In this document: positions 4,701-34,557 of the stretch, piece by piece
Layout of the letters: every line of letters starts with the position of its first letter
How positions within the stretch are numbered: the stretch's first letter is position 1
Assembly (NCBI GenBank): GCA_009777155.1
Contig: WRMK01000005.1
Coordinates: forward strand, 1 to 34,557
Direction of reading: 5' to 3'
DNA: 34,557 bases
From: Oscillospiraceae bacterium
GTDB taxonomy: Bacteria; Bacillota; Clostridia; Oscillospirales; Ruminococcaceae
Notes under the pieces: generated by a model
The model's input: only the letters and a program-made list of their open reading frames with translations
Told to the model about the DNA's origin: nothing
Database searches by the model: none
Translations under genes and position numbers: made by a program

Positions 4701-6097
4701 CCCATCGCCATACCGAGGAGATGTTCGGGAAAGAATACGTCTTTAAGGCGGGTACGATTTCGTCGATTAAGGATAAGACGGCGTTCGGGTGTGTGAAAAA
4801 GTTCTTGGAGGAGCGGAATTTAAGCGTGAACAAGGCTGAAATTAACCGCCTTGTCAAGGGTTGCACGGGGGTGAAACGCACTACCGGCCAGCATCCGGGG
4901 GGCATGGTGGTTGTGCCGCGTGAGTATGATGTCTACGATTTTACGCCGGTTCAGCACCCTGCGGAAGAAGGCGGCAAGGATATAATTACTACCCACTTTG
5001 ATTTCCATTCGCTACATGATACGATTTTGAAACTTGACGAATTGGGGCATGATGTGCCGACTTTGTACAAGTATCTTGAGGATATGACGGGGGTGAAAAT
5101 CGCGGCTGTGCCTACTTCGGACGAGCGTGTGATGAGCTTGTTCACCTCGACCGACGCGCTGGAATTATCCCCCGATTACGACAAAAATTTAATCCCGCTC
5201 GGCACTTATGGATTGCCCGAATTTGGGACGAGTTTTGTAATCGGCATGCTCAAAGATGCCTGCCCGTCTAAGTTTTCGGACTTGTTGCAGATTTCGGGAT
5301 TGTCGCACGGAACCGACGTTTGGATTGGCAACGCGCAGGAGTTAATCAAGGACGGCACTTGCGATATTTCGACTGTAATCGGCACTCGCGATAATATTAT
5401 GGTGCATTTAATGCACAAGGGTATGGATTCTTCGATGGCGTTCAAAATTACCGAAATTACGCGCAAAGGCAATGCGTGGGCTTTGTTTGACGACGCGATT
5501 TATAAGGCGTTCGAGGATTGCAAGGTCGAGCCGTGGTACATCGAAAGTTGCAAAAAAATTAAGTACATGTTCCCGAAGGCCCACGCGGCCGCTTATGTCA
5601 CGGGGGCGGTAAAGCTCGGCTGGTTCAAGGTTTATCACCCGGTTGCGTTTTATGCGGCGGTCTTGACAAAGCATACCGAGAATTTTGAGACTGATTGTGT
5701 ACTCGGCGGCAAGGAGGCGGTGCGGGCGCGGATTCACGCGATTTCGCAAAGCCCCGATGCGTCCAAAAAGGAAAAAGACGTTCAGGAAGCTTTGTATTTG
5801 GTCTACGAAATGCAGTGCAGGGGGATTAATTTCCTGCCGGCGCGGTATGACAAGTCCGAGGCGGCGCGGTATGTCATTGAGGGCGGGAATTTGCGGCTGC
5901 CGTTTTTGGCGATTGCGGGGTGCGGGGAGAATGCGGCGGCGCGGCTCTGCGAGGTCGTGAGGTCGGGAGATTTTATCAGTGTGGATGATATTAAGTTGAA
6001 GTCGGGCTTGAATAATACGGTTATGGAGCGGTTGGCGGAGATGGATGTGTTTGAGGGGTTGCCGCAGTCGGCGCAGATGTCTTTGTTTGATTTTTAG
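1721..6097 (+). CDS. polC: DNA polymerase III alpha subunit, PolC type
   Basis: PolC is the replicative polymerase of low-GC Gram-positive bacteria. Length (1458 residues) matches the family. Domains in order: a poorly conserved N-terminal domain; an OB-fold region around 250-330; the start of the PHP domain at about 340 (ELHLHTNMSDMDG, AITDHGN); an inserted DEDDh 3'-5' proofreading exonuclease from about 436 (IIFDVETTGLS, LIAHNASFDGGFL, HRALDDSKVLA); the rest of PHP; then the polymerase core with GSRGSVGSSFAATVLGI near 893, a zinc module with CPLC and CPVC pairs near 924-950, and the catalytic PDIDLNFSG near 980. The end, QMSLFDF, is typical. The stop is directly abutted by a palindromic repeat. 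All signature motifs are intact. Confidence 0.97.
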   Translation: MSERLSVLFEGVNLPAELADKHVISAVHESGSGLFILQILSDELISAESINKTADIIKTELGVRETRIYPKYPGELFSGEYIHEIIGIIKPFPTYTNAAKAVLDGVEVNDDGEVFEITLGGGGREILMSEKVDNEIIKLVRGFFGVTIKVDFANPVSFEHSISDSQEEKIPVFVSTKPIETVKNYSENNGEKRYNGGRKTPKTLQDSKEITLPFKHEKFSEAAQLIFGESIQNPPVEMISLSGETENIVLWGEVFSFENKSVSQGKNASISVGFSDGTSSQTMKIFTSAKNADGFKQIKNAGAILVQGDLKFDKFVDEIVVEPKAIALLQIHEKLDNAAVKRCELHLHTNMSDMDGITPVTELINQAYKWGHRAIAITDHGNAQAFPEAMYALEKITKKNPAADFKVIYGVEAYFVRDGKALIEGDELLNYPVSGELIIFDVETTGLSPVNERIIEIGAVKLRNLEIIGEFSSFVNPAKPIPEHITAINGISDDMVKDAPTESEVLAKFIEFCGDSPLIAHNASFDGGFLRETCKRCNIVYNFNTIDTVKLCRAAVPGVKSHSLDAMAKYYKAGEFNHHRALDDSKVLAIIFKKLIEDAARGKSLKLLGELNSVFGEVDIKKEHSYHMIILVKNKAGLKNLYRLISLSNLNYYYKRPRVPLSVLQENREGLIIGSGCEGGELFQAVLDGLPEEKLVEIAEIYDYFEIQPTSNNAFLVREGRVDSELKLQIFNRKIVELGKKLNKPVVATCDVHYKDAGDSIFREILQVSQKYKDAVNQPPLYFRTTDEMLEEFGYLGDDVAFEVVVANTNKIADEVEQVRPIPKGTYTPKVEGAEEEIRRFAYERARELYGEKLPEIVEKQLEKELTAIVNNGFAGLYMIARKLVKRSEESGYLVGSRGSVGSSFAATVLGISEVNPLPPHYRCPLCKHSEFVKDVQSGFDLPPKNCPVCKNQQSQVAMERDGHDIPFETFMGFDGDKAPDIDLNFSGEYQAQAHRHTEEMFGKEYVFKAGTISSIKDKTAFGCVKKFLEERNLSVNKAEINRLVKGCTGVKRTTGQHPGGMVVVPREYDVYDFTPVQHPAEEGGKDIITTHFDFHSLHDTILKLDELGHDVPTLYKYLEDMTGVKIAAVPTSDERVMSLFTSTDALELSPDYDKNLIPLGTYGLPEFGTSFVIGMLKDACPSKFSDLLQISGLSHGTDVWIGNAQELIKDGTCDISTVIGTRDNIMVHLMHKGMDSSMAFKITEITRKGNAWALFDDAIYKAFEDCKVEPWYIESCKKIKYMFPKAHAAAYVTGAVKLGWFKVYHPVAFYAAVLTKHTENFETDCVLGGKEAVRARIHAISQSPDASKKEKDVQEALYLVYEMQCRGINFLPARYDKSEAARYVIEGGNLRLPFLAIAGCGENAAARLCEVVRSGDFISVDDIKLKSGLNNTVMERLAEMDVFEGLPQSAQMSLFDF

Positions 6098-6197
6098 TAG
6101 CAATTCCGGTTAGAAATTGCCCGATATACGAGCGCAAAAGCTTTGATTTATGCGGTTTTGTGCTCGGATTGCGGTGCAATTTCAAGCGGAATTGCTA
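6098..6197 (+). repeat. ~100-bp palindromic repeat, copy 1
   Basis: Imperfect palindrome starting at the base after the polC stop. Its ends are TAGCAATTCCG and the exact complement CGGAATTGCTA. An inner stem pairs CGAGCGCAAAA with TTTTGTGCTCG around a loop containing TTTATGCGG. The inner stem and loop recur almost unchanged, inverted, at 34228-34328. Related copies lie at 24260, 24386 and 25522. The TA at each end resembles the target of IS630/mariner-type small inverted-repeat elements, but no transposase is linked. By position it could also work as a transcription barrier after polC. Confidence 0.85.
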
Positions 6198-6198
6198 C

Positions 6199-6473
6199 AG
6201 GGCAACAGGGGGGTGTGGGGGTCTATGTCTGCGCCACCGTAAAGGTCTGCCAGCCCGCCACACAGGCTGTTCAGACTCCACTTTCTCGATTGCGAGTTTA
6301 CAAGTTCACGACTTAATAGGTTTAATCTACTTAAAAAGTCTGCGCTCGCATAGGGTTTGTGCTACGTGATAACGGTTCGGCTCGAGAAAGTTAAGCTTTA
6401 TCAAGCGTAGAACGCGGGCGTGCAGACCTTTACGGTGGCGCAGACATAGACCCCCACACCCCCCTGTTGCCCT
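6199..6473. repeat. Long-armed inverted-repeat element, copy 1
   Basis: The arms at 6199-6250 and 6422-6473 are exact reverse complements over 52 bases. Each outer end begins AGGGCAACAGGGGGG (read inward). They enclose 171 bases. A second element with the same 171-base centre length lies at 29011-29266. When that copy is reverse-complemented, about 100 of the 171 centre positions match without gaps by my hand count. The best-conserved parts are CAGCCCGCC at one edge, GAGAAAGTTAA and GGGCGT at the other, and a TCGCATA...GGGTTT...GCTAC block. The centre carries stop codons in this copy and is not coding. The arms contain G-runs that could form a quadruplex. Bases 6474-6558 hold nothing I recognise. 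Confidence 0.85.
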
Positions 6474-6558
6474 CTACAGTTTCTGCGCCCTTGCCACTCT
6501 GCTCATTTGTAGCTAAATGTACTCTTGATATGTTGAAAATGTTTGTGGGATTCATCAA

Positions 6559-6607: not shown

Positions 6608-6650
6608 GTGTAAAAATATCGGTGGCAATGACGAGGCTTGAAAATTATTA

Positions 6651-6737
6651 AGGGAGGCATGCCCCATGCCGCAATTTTCGGTAGCTTTAGCTACAGAAAT
6701 TCTGTGGTGGCGCGGGCGGCATGGTATTGAAAATATG
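6651..6737 (+). promoter_or_regulatory. Leader hairpin upstream of hisZ (shared with the 25933-26616 HD gene)
   Basis: CCCATGCCGC (6663-6672) pairs with GCGGCATGG (ending 6724), and a nested stem GTAGC/GCTAC lies inside. The sequence TATTGAAAAT then leads to the ATG at 6735. A near-identical outer frame, with a different nested stem (CTTC/GAAG), precedes the HD gene at 26614-26674 with the same 10-base distance to its ATG. A good ribosome site, GGGAGG at 6652-6657, sits before an earlier ATG at 6666. That opens a reading frame in phase with hisZ, so the element could be translated as a 23-residue extension or act as a regulatory leader. Confidence 0.6.
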
Positions 6738-7700
6738 AAGAAAAATAATTTGATAACCCCTGAAGGCACTCGTGACCTGCTTTTTGATGAGTGCTTGGCG
6801 CGGCGGAAAATCGAGACCGACTTGATGAGTTTGTTCAAAAGTAAGGGATTTTCCGAGGTGGTTACGCCGCTTTTGGAGTTTTACGACGTGTTTGACAATT
6901 ATTTCACACAAGAGCAGATGTACAAATTGCCCGACGCGAAAGGGCGTCTGATGGTTTTGCGGCCGGACTCGACGCTGCCGATTATTCGGCTCGCGGAGAC
7001 CCGATTGCGCGACGAACCGCGCCCGTTGCGGCTTTGTTACAACCAGGTGATTTACCGCGCGAACCCGAAAGAGGCGGGCGTGGACGACGAAATCGCGCAG
7101 TGCGGAATTGAGCTGATTGGCGGGAGCAGCGCGGGGATTTTGAAGCTTGCGGTCGAGGTTTTCAAGACGATTGGCGGGAATTATCGCTTTGAATTGGGCA
7201 ATTGCAGGATTTTCAGCCGATTGGCGAAGGAGTATAAAATCGACCCGGAAAAGGCCGAGTTGATTCGGCGGTTGGTCGAAACTAAAAATTATTCGGGCTT
7301 GTCGGCTTTAGATATACCTGCGATTTTTGTCGAGTTGCCAAAACTTTTCGGCGGTTTTGAGGTCTTTGAAAAGGCCGAGAAATTATTCAAAACCGAGACT
7401 ATGAAAAATCGCTTGATGGCTCTAAAGCGGGTCTACACCGAGCTTTGTGAGTATGTCAAGGGGGATAAAATTACTGTCGATTTGGGGCTTACGAACGAGC
7501 TTGGTTATTACACGGGAATAATTTTTAACGGCTATTCCGAGGGCTTTGGCGAGCCGGTTTTGACCGGCGGAAAGTATAAAGTTGGTAACACTTTGGCGGC
7601 AGGTTTTGCGGTTAATATTAGTGAATTGAGTTTGAAAACGAATCTACAAAATCGGGGAAAACGATACATTTCATCCCTCGTTTGTGAGGGTGGACAATGA
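6735..7700 (+). CDS. hisZ: ATP phosphoribosyltransferase regulatory subunit HisZ
   Basis: HisZ is a HisRS-like protein without aminoacylation activity. It binds short-form HisG and is needed for the first step of histidine synthesis. The sequence opens with LITPEGTRDLL, as class II HisRS-type proteins do, and keeps MVLRPDSTLPIIRL (motif 2 region) and ELGYYTGIIFNGY. The histidine-specific motifs of true HisRS and its anticodon domain are missing, and the length (321 residues) is a little short for the family. I chose the ATG at 6735 because homologous proteins start here. An in-phase ATG at 6666 has a better ribosome site and would add 23 residues encoded by a hairpin repeat. hisG follows 21 bases downstream, which supports the call. 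Confidence 0.88.
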   Translation: MKKNNLITPEGTRDLLFDECLARRKIETDLMSLFKSKGFSEVVTPLLEFYDVFDNYFTQEQMYKLPDAKGRLMVLRPDSTLPIIRLAETRLRDEPRPLRLCYNQVIYRANPKEAGVDDEIAQCGIELIGGSSAGILKLAVEVFKTIGGNYRFELGNCRIFSRLAKEYKIDPEKAELIRRLVETKNYSGLSALDIPAIFVELPKLFGGFEVFEKAEKLFKTETMKNRLMALKRVYTELCEYVKGDKITVDLGLTNELGYYTGIIFNGYSEGFGEPVLTGGKYKVGNTLAAGFAVNISELSLKTNLQNRGKRYISSLVCEGGQ

Positions 7701-13934: not shown

Positions 13935-14261
13935 ATGAGCGTTTTAAGTAATCTTTACGAGTTGGTTTGCGAGCGCAGAAATAGCCCTGCGCCTAATTCT
14001 TACACGGGTTATTTGTTTGAAAAAGGACTTGACAAAATTCTCAAAAAATGCGGTGAAGAGTCCGCAGAAATGATAATTGCCGCGAAAAATCAAGACACAT
14101 TGGAATTGAAAAACGAAATCGCCGACTTGATTTTTCACATCGTTGTTTTGTGTGCAGAAGCGGGTTTATCGTGGGAAGAAGTCGAGGAAGTTTTGAACGA
14201 AAGGGCAAAAAAAGCAGGAAATTTGAAACAATTTCACAATAGTGAAAATGATATGTTATGA
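13935..14261 (+). CDS. hisE: Phosphoribosyl-ATP pyrophosphatase
   Basis: HisE removes pyrophosphate from phosphoribosyl-ATP, the second step of the pathway. It is an all-alpha MazG-like fold. The 108-residue protein contains SYTGYLFEKGLDKILKKCGE, ESAEMIIAAKN and NEIADLIFHIVVLCAE, supplying the acidic metal-binding residues. GGAGGG lies before the start. This is the last gene of the his run; the next gene is 62 bases away and may have its own promoter. Confidence 0.95.
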   Translation: MSVLSNLYELVCERRNSPAPNSYTGYLFEKGLDKILKKCGEESAEMIIAAKNQDTLELKNEIADLIFHIVVLCAEAGLSWEEVEEVLNERAKKAGNLKQFHNSENDML

Positions 14262-14284
14262 TTTTCAGATTTCTCTCATATAAT
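14256..14284 (+). promoter_or_regulatory. Possible promoter of the small membrane protein / M50 pair
   Basis: TTATGA (14256-14261), 17 bases and a perfect TATAAT (14279-14284) lie across the hisE stop. The -10 box is strong and the -35 box weak (3 of 6). The next gene starts 40 bases downstream with an AAGGAGAG ribosome site. Confidence 0.45.
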
Positions 14285-14323
14285 TTATGGACGAGCGTTT
14301 AATATAAATTTAAGGAGAGAATT

Positions 14324-14575
14324 ATGGAAAAAATTAATGGAAATTCAGTTGCAAATATTATACAGGAAATACCTCCAATATTTCCCCAAAATGACAAAAT
14401 TGACTCAAAAAATCCGTCTAAAAAGGCAGAAAAAAGCATTATTTTATATCGAATTGTCACATCAATGTTAATAGTTTTTGCATTAATTTTTATGAAGATT
14501 ATTACACCGGAAATATACGCGGTATTTAATTCTTGGATAACAGAAAAACTCGCTCTGAATCAGCTTTTATTATGA
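14324..14575 (+). CDS. Small single-pass membrane protein, possibly SpoIVFA-like
   Basis: An 83-residue protein with a strong ribosome site (AAGGAGAG). The first 40 residues are polar and rich in lysine, asparagine and proline. One hydrophobic helix follows (about 41-62, IVTSMLIVFALIFMKII), then a short tail. I do not recognise the sequence. Its stop overlaps the start of an M50 protease (ATGA), so the two are translationally coupled. In sporulating Bacillota the SpoIVFB protease is encoded beside its membrane partner SpoIVFA, whose topology (cytosolic N-terminus, one helix) is similar. SpoIVFA proper carries a C-terminal LytM-like domain that is absent here. The partner role is an inference from position and topology only. 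Confidence 0.7.
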   Translation: MEKINGNSVANIIQEIPPIFPQNDKIDSKNPSKKAEKSIILYRIVTSMLIVFALIFMKIITPEIYAVFNSWITEKLALNQLLL

Positions 14576-20472: not shown

Positions 20473-20534
20473 GATTTGGGCGTGTGACACTGTTGCTTGT
20501 TGTAGATGTTTTGGATAGTTTTTTGTAATGTTGG

Positions 20535-20649
20535 GTTAAAATTTTTCGCAGTTCTGTGTTAAAATTTTTCGCGATGTTGTGTTAAAATTTTTCGCAGTTC
20601 TGTGTTAAATTTTTTTGCAATACTGTGTTAAAATTTTCCGCAATGTACA
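20535..20649 (+). repeat. 23-bp tandem array (five units)
   Basis: Five direct units begin at 20535, 20558, 20581, 20604 and 20627, each starting GTTAAAATTTTTCGC with small changes. The units abut with no spacers, so this is not CRISPR. The last unit is the left half of the hairpin at 20632-20666, so the array looks like repeated copying of that half-site. It lies between the thioesterase stop and the tRNA-Leu promoter. Confidence 0.85.
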
Positions 20650-20666
20650 AAGCATTGCGGAAAATT
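20632..20666. repeat. Dispersed hairpin, copy 1
   Basis: AATTTTCCGCAATG (20632-20645) and CATTGCGGAAAATT (20653-20666) are exact 14-base inverted copies with a 7-base loop. A copy about 46 bases long with a few changes is at 34106-34152. It could end transcription of the thioesterase unit, although the run of T is on the wrong side for a standard + strand terminator. A second weak stem (AATCGGA 20684-20690 with TCCGATT 20705-20711, then T7) is a better terminator candidate. Confidence 0.7.
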
Positions 20667-25447: not shown

Positions 25448-25521
25448 TATAATTTTTATACACATTGCAGGACGGGTATATTTTGTTCGGATAGTTTTTC
25501 GTAATCATGCATCCTTTTATA

Positions 25522-25622
25522 TAGCAATTTTACTTATTAATTACTCGATAGACAAGCGTAAAAGCTATAACCTATGCGGTTTTGCGCTTGGATTGCGTAG
25601 TAAATTAAAAGTAAAATTGCTA
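25522..25622 (+). repeat. ~100-bp palindromic repeat, copy 4
   Basis: Ends TAGCAATTTTAC (25522-25533) and GTAAAATTGCTA (25611-25622), exact complements. The centre has AAGCGTAAAAGC, CTATGCGG and TTTTGCGCTT. The inner stem differs from copy 1 (AGCG..CGCT) but still pairs. On the minus strand it interrupts an open frame that runs in from 25864. Confidence 0.85.
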
Positions 25623-25864
25623 TATGTCTTAATGATTTCAGAAGGGTTACTGCCACAACCGCCAAAAGTGTAGCTTATTCTCTCGTATTTATTGATTTCT
25701 TGTCTGTTTTTATTCCAACAATTTTTGCGATAAGCTACCGCCTTTTCATGTAAATCTGCTAAGGGTTCATCAATTACATTGCCGGGTATAATTGTGTCGG
25801 GGTTTTTCAATGAAAACCACTTACAGTTAAACCCGGTAATTCTGTCAACAATACAGTTCCCTCT
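25565..25864 (-). pseudogene. Unrecognised gene fragment ending in a palindromic repeat
   Basis: An open frame after two stops at 25870-25865 reads DRITGFNCKWFSLKNPD..., then NVIDEPLADLHEKAVAYRKN and ISYTFGGCGSNPSEI. At 25622 it enters the ~100-bp repeat, which supplies the last 18 or so codons and the stop. No ribosome site fits an internal start. The composition looks coding, but I do not recognise it. It is likely the remains of a gene cut by the repeat. Bases 25865-25932 hold nothing clear. Confidence 0.35.
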
Positions 25865-25932: not shown

Positions 25933-26616
25933 TCAAACAATCCTCCCATTATTAATAACCAACCGAAACCTTACCCCCAGCGCCTCCGCCGACAACCGGC
26001 AGAGCGACATTCGTTGCAGAAAAATTTCAAAGTATTCAATAACCGGGCTGATTTTTTCGTCGATAATTAAATCCAAAAACAGCTCGGTTTTGTCGTCCGA
26101 AAAATAGTGCCGCGCCTGTACACAAGCGTAATTGACCCTGTCGTGAATATCGTTGATTACAGGCTCGGCGTTATTTTTTCTACTCTTGCGAAATCGCACA
26201 CGCGACCGCCGCACGTCCATCTTGTCGGCCAAGATTACGGCGGCGGCGACCGGGTTCACAGGCACGGCGGTCAGTTCGTCGTGGTGGCCGATTGCCGACA
26301 TGATTAACGCGATTTCACTCGCGGGCATGCCTAATTGAGCGAGCAGATTTTGCGCCAAAAGCGCGCCCGTATGAGCATGGTTACTGCGATTTATGCAGTT
26401 GCCAATATCGTGCAGATACCCCGAAATCTGCGCCAATCTGCACTCGGTCTCGGCGTACCCCAAAGCCTGCAAAATGCCGCAAGCAGTGTCGGCACAAAGC
26501 TCGGCGTGGGCGTTCGAGTGCTCGGTGTAACCCCGCGTTTCAAGCGATTTGTCGGCGTGGTTTATATACTCTTGAATGTCGGGATTTTGCTTAATTTGCT
26601 CGTAACTTATTTGCAT
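25933..26616 (-). CDS. HD-domain hydrolase
   Basis: A 227-residue metal-dependent phosphohydrolase of the HD superfamily. The motif is spread as H (TEHSNAHAEL), HD (ISGYLHDIGNCI), H (NHAHTGALLAQ) and HH (SAIGHHDEL), with a final Asp in LADKMDVRRSRVR. These fit a two-metal HD protein of the nucleotide- or phosphate-cleaving type; the substrate is unknown. The ATG at 26616 is chosen; an in-phase TTG at 26649 would add 11 residues from the leader hairpin. It is the last gene of the run that includes hslO, whose stop is 69 bases upstream. Confidence 0.82.
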   Translation of the reverse strand: MQISYEQIKQNPDIQEYINHADKSLETRGYTEHSNAHAELCADTACGILQALGYAETECRLAQISGYLHDIGNCINRSNHAHTGALLAQNLLAQLGMPASEIALIMSAIGHHDELTAVPVNPVAAAVILADKMDVRRSRVRFRKSRKNNAEPVINDIHDRVNYACVQARHYFSDDKTELFLDLIIDEKISPVIEYFEIFLQRMSLCRLSAEALGVRFRLVINNGRIV

Positions 26617-26674
26617 AATTTCAATACCATGCCGCCCACGCTTGCACAAACTTCAATGAAGATTGCGGCATGGG
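26614..26674 (-). promoter_or_regulatory. Leader hairpin of the HD gene (second copy of the hisZ leader)
   Basis: On the minus strand, CCCATGCCGC pairs with GCGGCATGG, with a nested CTTC/GAAG stem; TATTGAAATT then precedes the ATG, as before hisZ. AAGGAAG stands 9 bases before an ATG inside the left arm, opening a 16-codon frame (MPQSSLKFVQAWAAWY) that stops 5 bases before the HD start. Reinitiation coupling is thus possible. Confidence 0.6.
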
Positions 26675-26685
26675 ACAGGTCTTCC

Positions 26686-27558
26686 TTAATTATTTTCAAA
26701 CTTTATAATCTCCTGTGCCTCAAAATAATACTTCTTGTCACAAAAGTGACAGCAGACCTCGATTTCCTCGCCCGACTCCGCCATGCTCCGAAGCTCGTCC
26801 TCGCCGAGACTTACAAGCAACTGCCGAGTCCGCTCGGTTGAGCAGTCGCACTTGTAGGCGATTTCCCACTCGTCCAAAATTTCGCCGTCCATGCCCGCCA
26901 AACCCCGCAGTGCAATGGCTTCGGCAGTCATGCCCGCCTCGAACATTTCGGTCACGCTCTGCATAGTTTTGATGTTGTTTTCGATGAGCGCGATTTTACT
27001 TTCGTCAACAGGCGGCAAAAGCTGCAACAAGTATCCACCCGCGGCTTTTATGCTCCAATCGCGGTCCACCAACACGCCCAACCCGCAGACCGTCGGAATC
27101 TGCTCGCTGATGGCGTAATACGCGGTTATATCCTCGGCAATTTCGCCCGACACAAGCGGCACTTGCGCCGTGTGCGGTGTTTTCAAGCCGGTATCGCGGA
27201 TTACCCCCAGAACGCCCGAAGCCCCGACGTACCCCGCAACGTCCAATTTGCCTTTAAGGTTTAGCGGCAAATCGACGTTGTAATTCCCCGCACAGCATCG
27301 CACATTGCCCCTGTAGTCGGCGGTGACGGTGATAATGCCCGCCTTGCCGCCGCCGTCAATCCGCAGGGTGAGCAGGTCGCGCTCGTTCTTCATGAACCCG
27401 CCCATAATTGCCCCCGCAGTCGCCGCCCGCCCGAGGGCCGCGCTTGCAACGGGGGTTGTTTTGTGTATACGGTGGATTTCATTTACAATATCCCGCGTAT
27501 CGGCAACAGCGCAAAGCACGCCGCCATCGCGGGATAGGGCTCTTACTATTCTACTCAT
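26686..27558 (-). CDS. hslO: Hsp33 redox-regulated chaperone
   Basis: Hsp33 is a cytosolic holdase switched on by oxidation of a zinc-bound cysteine cluster. At 290 residues it is full length. The N-terminal domain shows SRDGGVLCAVADTRDIV, ALGRAATAGAIMGGFMK and GGGKAGIITVTADYRGNVRC. The C-terminal redox switch has the expected CxC in YKCDCSTER and CxxC in CCHFCDKKYYF. The ribosome site is weak. It lies downstream of the DUF4160/DUF2442 pair (33 bases apart) and upstream of an HD gene on the same strand. The spacer before it contains a short T/A-rich duplication (CTTTCTA and CTTGCTA units). Confidence 0.95.
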   Translation of the reverse strand: MSRIVRALSRDGGVLCAVADTRDIVNEIHRIHKTTPVASAALGRAATAGAIMGGFMKNERDLLTLRIDGGGKAGIITVTADYRGNVRCCAGNYNVDLPLNLKGKLDVAGYVGASGVLGVIRDTGLKTPHTAQVPLVSGEIAEDITAYYAISEQIPTVCGLGVLVDRDWSIKAAGGYLLQLLPPVDESKIALIENNIKTMQSVTEMFEAGMTAEAIALRGLAGMDGEILDEWEIAYKCDCSTERTRQLLVSLGEDELRSMAESGEEIEVCCHFCDKKYYFEAQEIIKFENN

Positions 27559-29010: not shown

Positions 29011-29266
29011 TGGGGGGCGACAGGGTGGTAGGGGTCGGCAGACGAACAGCCGCACGCCCCGCTTTTTCGATTGTTAAAATTTAACTTTCTCGTCCTCAAG
29101 ACTTTTCAAGTAGCAAAAACCCATATGCGAGAGTAAATTTTCAACAACAGCAAGCCCATAAGTCGGGAAGGGGATAAGTTTCATGTCGAGGGAGTGGGGG
29201 TTAAGCGGCTTGTGCGGCGGGCTGGCGGCTGTTCGTCTGCCGACCCCTACCACCCTGTCGCCCCCA
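29011..29266. repeat. Long-armed inverted-repeat element, copy 2
   Basis: The arms 29011-29053 and 29225-29266 are reverse complements with a single G insertion (43 against 42 bases). The centre, 29054-29224, is 171 bases, the same length as in copy 1 at 6199-6473, and aligns with it when reverse-complemented. The outer arm parts resemble copy 1 (GGCGACAGGG against GGCAACAGGG), while the inner arm parts do not. In one orientation the centre reads as a 36-codon frame (MKLIPFPTYGLAVVENLLSH and onward); copy 1 has a stop there, so coding is doubtful. It lies between the BMP lipoprotein stop and the HD gene. Confidence 0.82.
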
Positions 29267-33650: not shown

Positions 33651-33712
33651 AGAACCCGTCTCAATAGGAAACGTGCCGCTTATCCGGCACGTTTCCTATT
33701 GAGACGGGTTCT
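33651..33712. repeat. Perfect 28-bp inverted repeat (long hairpin)
   Basis: The arms at 33651-33678 and 33685-33712 are exact reverse complements (AGAACCCGTCTCAATAGGAA at the outer end) around the 6-base loop CTTATC. No T-run follows, so it is not a standard terminator. The perfect match over 28 bases suggests a recent fold-back duplication or strong selection for the structure. Confidence 0.8.
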
Positions 33713-33719
33713 AAATTCG

Positions 33720-34077
33720 GCATATTGCACAATAGGTATATCCGTGAACCTTTGAGCGAGTGGGTTTTCGAGCGAGTTTTTTCGCCGCACGAGGGCTTTC
33801 GCAATGCGCTTTTTTGTATATTGGACGATTGCGAAACTCGTCGTTTAGCGGACGGGCAATGCCCGTCCCTAGAATATGCAGGCGAACGACTAAACTAAAT
33901 CGCCATATGTAGGGGCGCAGCATTGCTTCGCAAGCGATGCGCGTCCGTGAGCTTCGCAATCGCCTATTTGTATATTACAAGGAGATTCAATGCGCGTATG
34001 ATGTGGAAAAATCCACGGGAATCCGCCGCAGAGATGCCGCGAACGAGGGTCGCGGATAAGTCTATTGTGCAATATGC
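33720..34077. repeat. 358-bp segment bounded by inverted repeats, rich in hairpins
   Basis: GCATATTGCACAATAG at 33720 recurs exactly, inverted, ending at 34077; extended to 25 bases, 22 match. Inside are GGACGGGCA/TGCCCGTCC (33850-33868), a GCATTGCTT/AAGCGATGC stem (33919-33939), and two related blocks with TTCGCAAT and TTTGTATATT (about 33794-33835 and 33952-33990). No open frame is credible. It may be a small non-autonomous element. Confidence 0.6.
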
Positions 34078-34105
34078 ACAAACTTTGCGGTCTTTTTGTC
34101 GCCGT

Positions 34106-34152
34106 ACTGCGTTAAAAATTTCCGCAATGTATAAAGCATTACGGAAAATAGC
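34106..34152. repeat. Dispersed hairpin, copy 2
   Basis: TTTCCGCAATG and CATTACGGAAA pair around TATAAAG. This copy and its flanking ACTGCGTTAAAAA match the block at 20622-20669 (ACTGTGTTAAAA, then the same stem) with only a few changes. No tandem array is present at this site. Confidence 0.7.
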
Positions 34153-34227
34153 GCACTGCGCCGGCCTTCAGTGTGACGACAAAAATCCGCGCAAATTCTT
34201 CAACCATTCTTAAACTGACCGACTACA

Positions 34228-34328
34228 TAGCAATTCCGCTTGAAATTGACACCGAAATCCGTGCACAAAACCGCATAAATCAAAGCTTTCGCGCTCGTCT
34301 ATCGGGCGATTTTTTAGCGGGATTGCTA
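34228..34328 (-). repeat. ~100-bp palindromic repeat, copy 5 (inverted orientation)
   Basis: Ends TAGCAATTCCGCTTGA and GCGGGATTGCTA, complementary except for one or two positions. The central segment is the reverse complement of copy 1 at 6131-6162 with about one mismatch in 28 bases, so copies 1 and 5 are closely related although 28 kb apart. Bases 34329-34557 hold no gene or structure I recognise. Confidence 0.85.
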
Positions 34329-34557
34329 TATTTTGTCAAGCTACTATGGCCGCGTCGGAGCTGATGTCTGCCGACTTCGGCGGCGAGCGTAATTGAGGAC
34401 TTCGCGTTCTCGATTATGCAATTTCCAACTTGCTATAATGCCATTGCCGAAAAAATGGCGAATTTGTACGTTTGTCAATGATATGTTACAAATTTTTTCA
34501 AAAAACTTCACCCGATATAAGAAAAGCGTTCAAAACCTCTCTCGGAGATTTCCAATT

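Follow-up and report, generated by a model that had tools for sequence, protein, structure and literature searches.

In a stretch of 34,557 nt from an Oscillospiraceae bacterium, analyzed as a whole (hereafter the window), 2 copies are present of an element that is high-copy, non-coding, and apparently non-autonomous, with a core of approximately 172 bases between inverted arms of approximately 40 to 60 bases. Comparison of the copies shows that core and arms are nearly uncoupled between copies, while the 2 arms within a copy are tightly coupled. The reading that we favor, with a probability of roughly 0.6, is that of an intergenic repeat, non-autonomous, in which arm-to-arm copying keeps the arms of each copy alike and can also invert the core. 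The open-access literature searched yielded no described family with such a layout. In our view the element constitutes a new family of repeats, unusual in one feature, and its builder is most likely a known mutational process.

Copies in the window and across the genome

Copy 1, on the plus strand, consists of a 52-nt left arm (6199–6250), a 171-base core (6251–6421), and a 52-nt right arm (6422–6473). On recomputation the 2 arms are exact reverse complements, as the earlier note had stated; the first base outward of this pairing is unpaired, and the chance expectation in the window for exact 52-base inverted pairs within 1 kb is approximately 2e-24. The proposed continuation of the pairing into the core through GCCCGC/GCGGGC, beyond a 2×2 mismatch, is present in the predicted fold of copy 1. 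Copy 2, on the minus strand, has a 171-base core (29054–29224) between the arm at the window's left (29011–29053, 43 nt) and the arm at the window's right (29225–29266, 42 nt), and recomputation again found these arms to pair save for one extra G. The core model (R1) matched positions 6250–6423 for copy 1 (196.8 bits) and 29052–29225 on the minus strand for copy 2 (161.7 bits), the 2 cores being in opposite orientation. The ungapped identity of about 60% reported for the centers was reproduced (59%) once one of them was reverse-complemented; in the same orientation it was 24% to 35% over the five offsets tried, and in a gapped alignment 121 of 168 aligned positions agree. Copy 1 has a DNA polymerase III alpha gene on one side and, on the other, a gene encoding a histidyl-tRNA-synthetase domain, presumably HisZ; copy 2 is flanked by an HD-domain gene and a Bmp/PnrA-like gene.

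Other repeats were observed in the window. A different palindromic repeat (GTAGCAATT...AATTGCTAC) at 6097–6198 directly abuts copy 1 and has relatives at 25515–25625 and 34227–34331. Another dispersed repeat pair is found at 6638–6744 and 26607–26699; its first member covers the start of an ORF listed at 6666, so this gene may start near 6735. Tandem 23-base units occupy 20496–20665, with a related single stretch at 34072–34149, and a perfect 28-base inverted repeat with a 6-base loop lies at 33651–33712.

The element had been described as a two-copy element with a fixed 171-base center. This description had to be abandoned with respect to copy number, because a core model built from 51 cores gave at least 113 core matches in the element's own genome, an assembly of 2.36 Mb in 209 contigs (E ≤ 0.001; 150 of 911 candidates scored). 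The concern that the center might lack homologues is thereby settled. As to its length, 171 bases applies to both window copies but not genome-wide, where the model matches of 104 full cores measure 170 to 176 nt (174 for copy 1). Additional single arms occur at contig ends beyond these 113 matches, and blastn searches started from either window copy returned tens of own-genome relatives (40 candidates scored in each case). Among the core-model matches, half-cores were present only at contig ends, and there was no longer version with the same ends.

All matches to the core came from its own genome. There were none in 59 relatives, 35 of them of the same genus, and none in 393 other genomes of the order, 2 overlapping sets searched with stricter filters and with at most 46 and 7 candidates scored per genome, respectively. 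Plasmids and phages gave no match, nor did a pattern search of a genome contig collection; in viral contigs, three patterns led to seven loci, none of which holds the element according to the model. In 40 copies with wide flanks, no ORF of 90 amino acids or more runs across the element, and an ORF overlaps it partly in 10. The neighboring genes of 40 copies (leaving out three copies that lack a neighbor on one side) are in tandem in 28 cases, divergent in 6, and convergent in 6. The lack of a spanning ORF together with this layout identifies the element as an intergenic repeat.

Arm likeness within and between copies

All 113 copies were examined together with as much flanking sequence as the contigs provide, and 99 of them were testable for arms. 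Over the 40 nt beside the core, the left and right arms were at least 97.5% identical in 46 of the 99 copies, 90% to 97.5% identical in 35, and less identical in 18, part of which lie at contig ends or carry a run of C. Arms within a copy thus reached 90% identity in 81 of 99 copies, a value attained by 3.8% of 3,000 sampled comparisons between copies. The best local arm alignments of the 99 copies, which omit unmatched ends, contained 154 mismatches in 4,787 positions and 30 gaps. Arms of different copies are alike by a median of approximately 74% and form 47 types when clustered at 90%. Even in the 94 pairs of copies with cores at least 90% alike, median arm likeness was only 84.5%, and the Spearman correlation between core identity and arm identity was 0.14. 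The earlier proposal that the pairing of the arms is conserved rather than their sequence, and that arms differ between copies, is borne out in most testable copies; unpaired arms, which would speak against it, are not the rule, yet the 18 copies below 90% show that pairing is not universal.

We also searched the genome with the motif of one common arm type, obtaining 109 matches, of which 100 were listed. The listed matches lacking a core were 12 single arms no more than 95 nt from a contig end and two stretches inside contigs (L166 and L167) that look like truncated fragments; 2 of the 14 core-less stretches were inspected as sequence. A core that invades pre-existing palindromes is disfavored, since the listed core-less matches of this one arm type are contig-end arms or fragment-like stretches.

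Regarding arm composition, the outer half of the right arm is C-rich (56% C in this family and 52% in the second family described below) and has two or more CCC runs in 94 of 99 copies; four C runs within 75 nt occur in 30 of 99. The opposite strand of these runs might form G-quadruplexes, and that these stall replication is a guess. One copy (L047, contig C131) has a long run of C in place of its right arm, which is probably an assembly error.

A similar arrangement was found around another core. A scan for inverted repeats with arms of at least 38 nt and spacers of 100 to 400 nt covered 397 kb of the own genome, in stretches picked by contig and not randomly, and found 7 there; a single-contig congener had 1 in 400 kb, and five others had 0 in 371 kb. 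Three of the seven own-genome repeats belong to the first family and two to a second one (6289–6510 and 14246–14473 of locus L242, contig C14), which has a core of approximately 135 bases and arms of approximately 40 nt. Searches for the second core, with 16 candidates scored per genome, gave 13 matches in the own genome; the 196 other genomes searched from the taxonomic family had none. Across the 11 copies flanked on both sides, the arms of a copy are alike by a median of 90% (range 62% to 100%) compared with 73% between copies, so the second family shows the same arm pattern, less cleanly. Comparing the six best second-family cores with the first core by nhmmer gave E values of 0.05 to 0.9, mostly from one 25-nt stretch, and one weak hit appeared among 240 shuffled controls; a shared 25-nt stretch is suggestive only.

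Apparent core inversion, possible exchange, and competing explanations

Several features of the copies bear on how the arms stay alike. Two copies, C4:8294 and C175:85, have different arm types on their two sides, which is the state expected after exchange between copies and before correction. Arm mismatch is 9.4% at nucleotides 1 to 5 from the core and 1% to 3% at nucleotides 20 to 39, climbing again to 7.8% at nucleotides 40 to 44, where some arms end. The excess beside the core is the pattern that partial copying tracts would leave; had the hairpin been rebuilt at each insertion, the best match should lie beside the loop. Among 48 nearest-neighbor pairs, drawn from the 78 copies whose arms agree by 85% and hence biased toward symmetric changes, 130 positions had changed alike in both arms and 72 in one arm only. 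Moreover, two pairs of alternative core blocks are seen in all four combinations (37, 5, 8, and 3 copies), which suggests exchange between cores; recurrent mutation can also yield some block and column combinations. A four-combination test on alignment columns (2,528 of 3,570 pairs), the signal of which scarcely falls with distance below 150 columns, was judged too weak to use, since recurrent mutation at such divergence gives the same result.

Many copies belong to a larger module in which side sequences, termed A and B, accompany the element. By motif, A lies left and B right of the core in 14 copies and the reverse holds in 12; A is on both sides in 3, one side only is occupied in 19, and 65 copies have neither. 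In a blast search with A, for which 40 of 98 candidates were scored, 39 rows were obtained. The inner end of A was reached by 32 of them, and 31 of these 32 lie one arm length (29 to 45 nt) from a core, while the 32nd lies beside an arm at a contig start. A was left of the core 18 times and right of it 13 times, the copy on C175 being counted on both sides. In the own-genome loci examined, most of which had been chosen around cores, all 38 inner-end A matches have a core within 90 nt. If A never occurs without the element, then the presence of both core orientations implies that the module spread with the element and that the core turned inside it. The alternative of a hairpin inserting repeatedly into an existing A-B module is disfavored by the scored A matches, which adjoin a core or, in one case, an arm, and by the 38 of 38 matches near a core. 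The core thus appears to have been inverted repeatedly. At least 9 orientation changes are required on a tree of 32 cores, 4 of them forced by well-supported branches; this tree is weak (4 of 29 inner branches well supported), and the changes are no more clustered on it than shuffled labels.

We propose that within a copy one arm would serve as template for the other, by template switching during replication or by arm-to-arm gene conversion, 2 routes that fit equally, and that this templating would keep the arms alike. An intermolecular switch, or a crossover, would invert the core. Recombination between different copies would place a new arm type on one side, and arm-to-arm copying would then carry it to the opposite side; one-sided uptake followed by copying would therefore let arms diverge between copies and stay paired inside each. 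The conserved blocks of the core could be contact points for a putative helper. In PMC8604942, template switching between inverted-repeat arms is described as homogenizing them and its intermolecular form as inverting the spacer. Both features are seen here, arms within a copy being more alike than arms of related copies and the spacer occurring inverted, the latter subject to the assembly. According to PMC8794818, template switching can create perfect stems and help maintain them, its role in maintaining short RNA stems being called "less clear." Among the three readings put forward in the earlier note, namely a structured RNA, a cruciform-forming element, and arm homogenization by gene conversion, the last is the best supported, by the chimeric intermediates, the core inversion, and the lack of a wobble bias. 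Its weak point is the spacer of approximately 172 bases: the spacer inversions tabulated in PMC8604942 have spacers of a few bases, and switching is tied there to short spacers. In addition, the evidence comes from comparison among the copies of a single assembly, probably made from short reads, and with 209 contigs such fragmentation may inflate arm identity and scramble orientation through merging of near-identical arms and mis-ordering of repeats.

Selection on the paired form could give a pattern similar to that of homogenization. The most serious competitor, to which we nevertheless give clearly lower odds, is that the element is mobilized, or cut, in the form of a DNA hairpin or cruciform recognized by its shape, with the helper contacting the core; selection would preserve the pairing of the arms, as copies that lose it would stop spreading. 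Such a structure is possible given the predicted energy of the copy 1 DNA hairpin (−100.8 kcal/mol, z −15.2). This explanation is also consistent with variable arms of which the right one shares a C-rich outer half, with the similar layout of a second family around another core, and with the lack of a target duplication in 87 copies, the flanking matches of which were no longer than with shuffled partners. It is at odds with the innermost arm bases, the closing point of the hairpin, being the least matched (9.4%), and no transposase was tied to the element in a search for one family, Y1_Tnp. This search found a single gene (L181:703–1290, contig C154), which we take to be RAYT-like. An element copy lies approximately 600 bases from it with another ORF between them, so a link to the element as its transposase is not clear. 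The reading frame of this gene contains copies of a GTAGGGTCGGGC...GCCCGACCCTAC-like palindrome.

A broader, rather doubtful idea is that these repeats represent a class of mobile element with its identity in a short core and with ends that are only self-complementary and have no fixed sequence. New arms would be acquired on one side from other copies or from the site and then copied across. The layout of two families in this genome, which differ in their cores, agrees with such a plan, that of the second less cleanly. If the arms are needed for movement, "fixed core, free ends" would be an unusual plan for a mobile element.

A structured RNA, with the arms as a long closing stem around a conserved core fold, is improbable. 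The predicted RNA of copy 1 does fold far better than shuffles (z −17.4), mostly through its arms; the set of 51 cores gives a weak consensus fold on one strand (−7.46 kcal/mol, z −6.7), a 44-copy subset lies 3.6 SD below 8 column shuffles on one strand, and for the core of the second family a clear fold is predicted on both strands (z approximately −6). However, RNAalifold, which gave almost nothing on the first strand of the 51 cores, finds no structure on either strand when all 104 full cores are used with default scoring, and with RIBOSUM scoring three of four strand-and-subset folds are within approximately 1.4 SD of shuffles. Two candidate helices, ACTTTCTCGA/TCGAGAAAGT and GCCCGC/GCGGGC, have no covariation above shuffles. 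In Rfam, the element has no match at the gathering score, at which the window yields only a tRNA, and one weak chance match lies beside it; the second family's element gives nothing. RNA pairing should moreover leave many tolerated G-U pairs among the arm mismatches, and these are not dominant (31 of 154 on one strand, 25 on the other, and 98 of other kinds), which disfavors RNA.

An inverton, in which a site-specific recombinase flips the core and so switches neighboring genes, would account for inverted arms around a short segment present in both orientations (A left of it 18 times and right of it 13 times, subject to the assembly); the 47 arm types leave no common recombination site in the arms, and the 28 tandem, 6 divergent, and 6 convergent gene pairs are no special arrangement, making this explanation very unlikely. 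We give equally little credence to arm identity being largely an assembly artifact, in which merging of near-identical paths equalized arms and mixed orientations: 29 of 113 copies are within 250 nt of a contig end and the right arm on C131 is a run of C, but path merging acts on nearly identical arms and cannot create 47 self-matching types, and both window copies lie inside one contig with distinct arms.

Significance and relation to known systems

That the arms of inverted repeats can correct each other is known from work on laboratory loci and on short stems. What this genome offers is a natural record of such correction, made up of about a hundred copies that have a long spacer and represent dozens of arm types; the rate of correction, its tract length, and its link with spacer inversion could be measured from it. 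The family also cautions that symmetric changes which preserve pairing, a pattern commonly taken for selection on RNA, can stem from DNA copying: the arms resemble compensatory evolution, yet their mismatches have no G-U excess.

The family shares with MITEs that it is short, non-coding, dispersed, and high in copy number, but its terminal inverted repeats are not conserved between copies. In the pneumococcal RUP and BOX elements and the enterobacterial RU elements, the ends are shared between copies. The likeness to these MITE-like bacterial repeats is that they are short and occupy many intergenic places, as described in PMC3049150 and PMC2759123. They differ from the element described here, the arms of which are long and copy-specific and for which neither a target duplication nor a partner transposase was found. 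Eukaryotic foldback elements have long inverted arms as well, whereas our element is bacterial and small and its arms are copy-specific. REP/BIME sequences with RAYT transposases, the unit of which bears a GTAG or CGTC tag, are likewise high-copy palindromic DNA, and one RAYT-like Y1_Tnp gene is present here. REPs are palindromic repeats of 20 to 40 bp according to PMC3733652; the arms of our element are 40 to 60 nt long, by eye do not resemble palindromes themselves, and vary by copy. Invertons (PMC11892184) likewise consist of a short segment that occurs in either orientation between inverted repeats, but the present family, with over 100 copies, has no shared recombination site in its arms and no gene-linked pattern. 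Finally, quasipalindrome correction by template switching resembles the behavior of this family in both arm homogenization and spacer inversion, going by PMC8604942 and PMC8794818; it is a mutational process and not an element family, and its spacers in the cases tabulated in PMC8604942 are a few bases long, compared with approximately 172 here.
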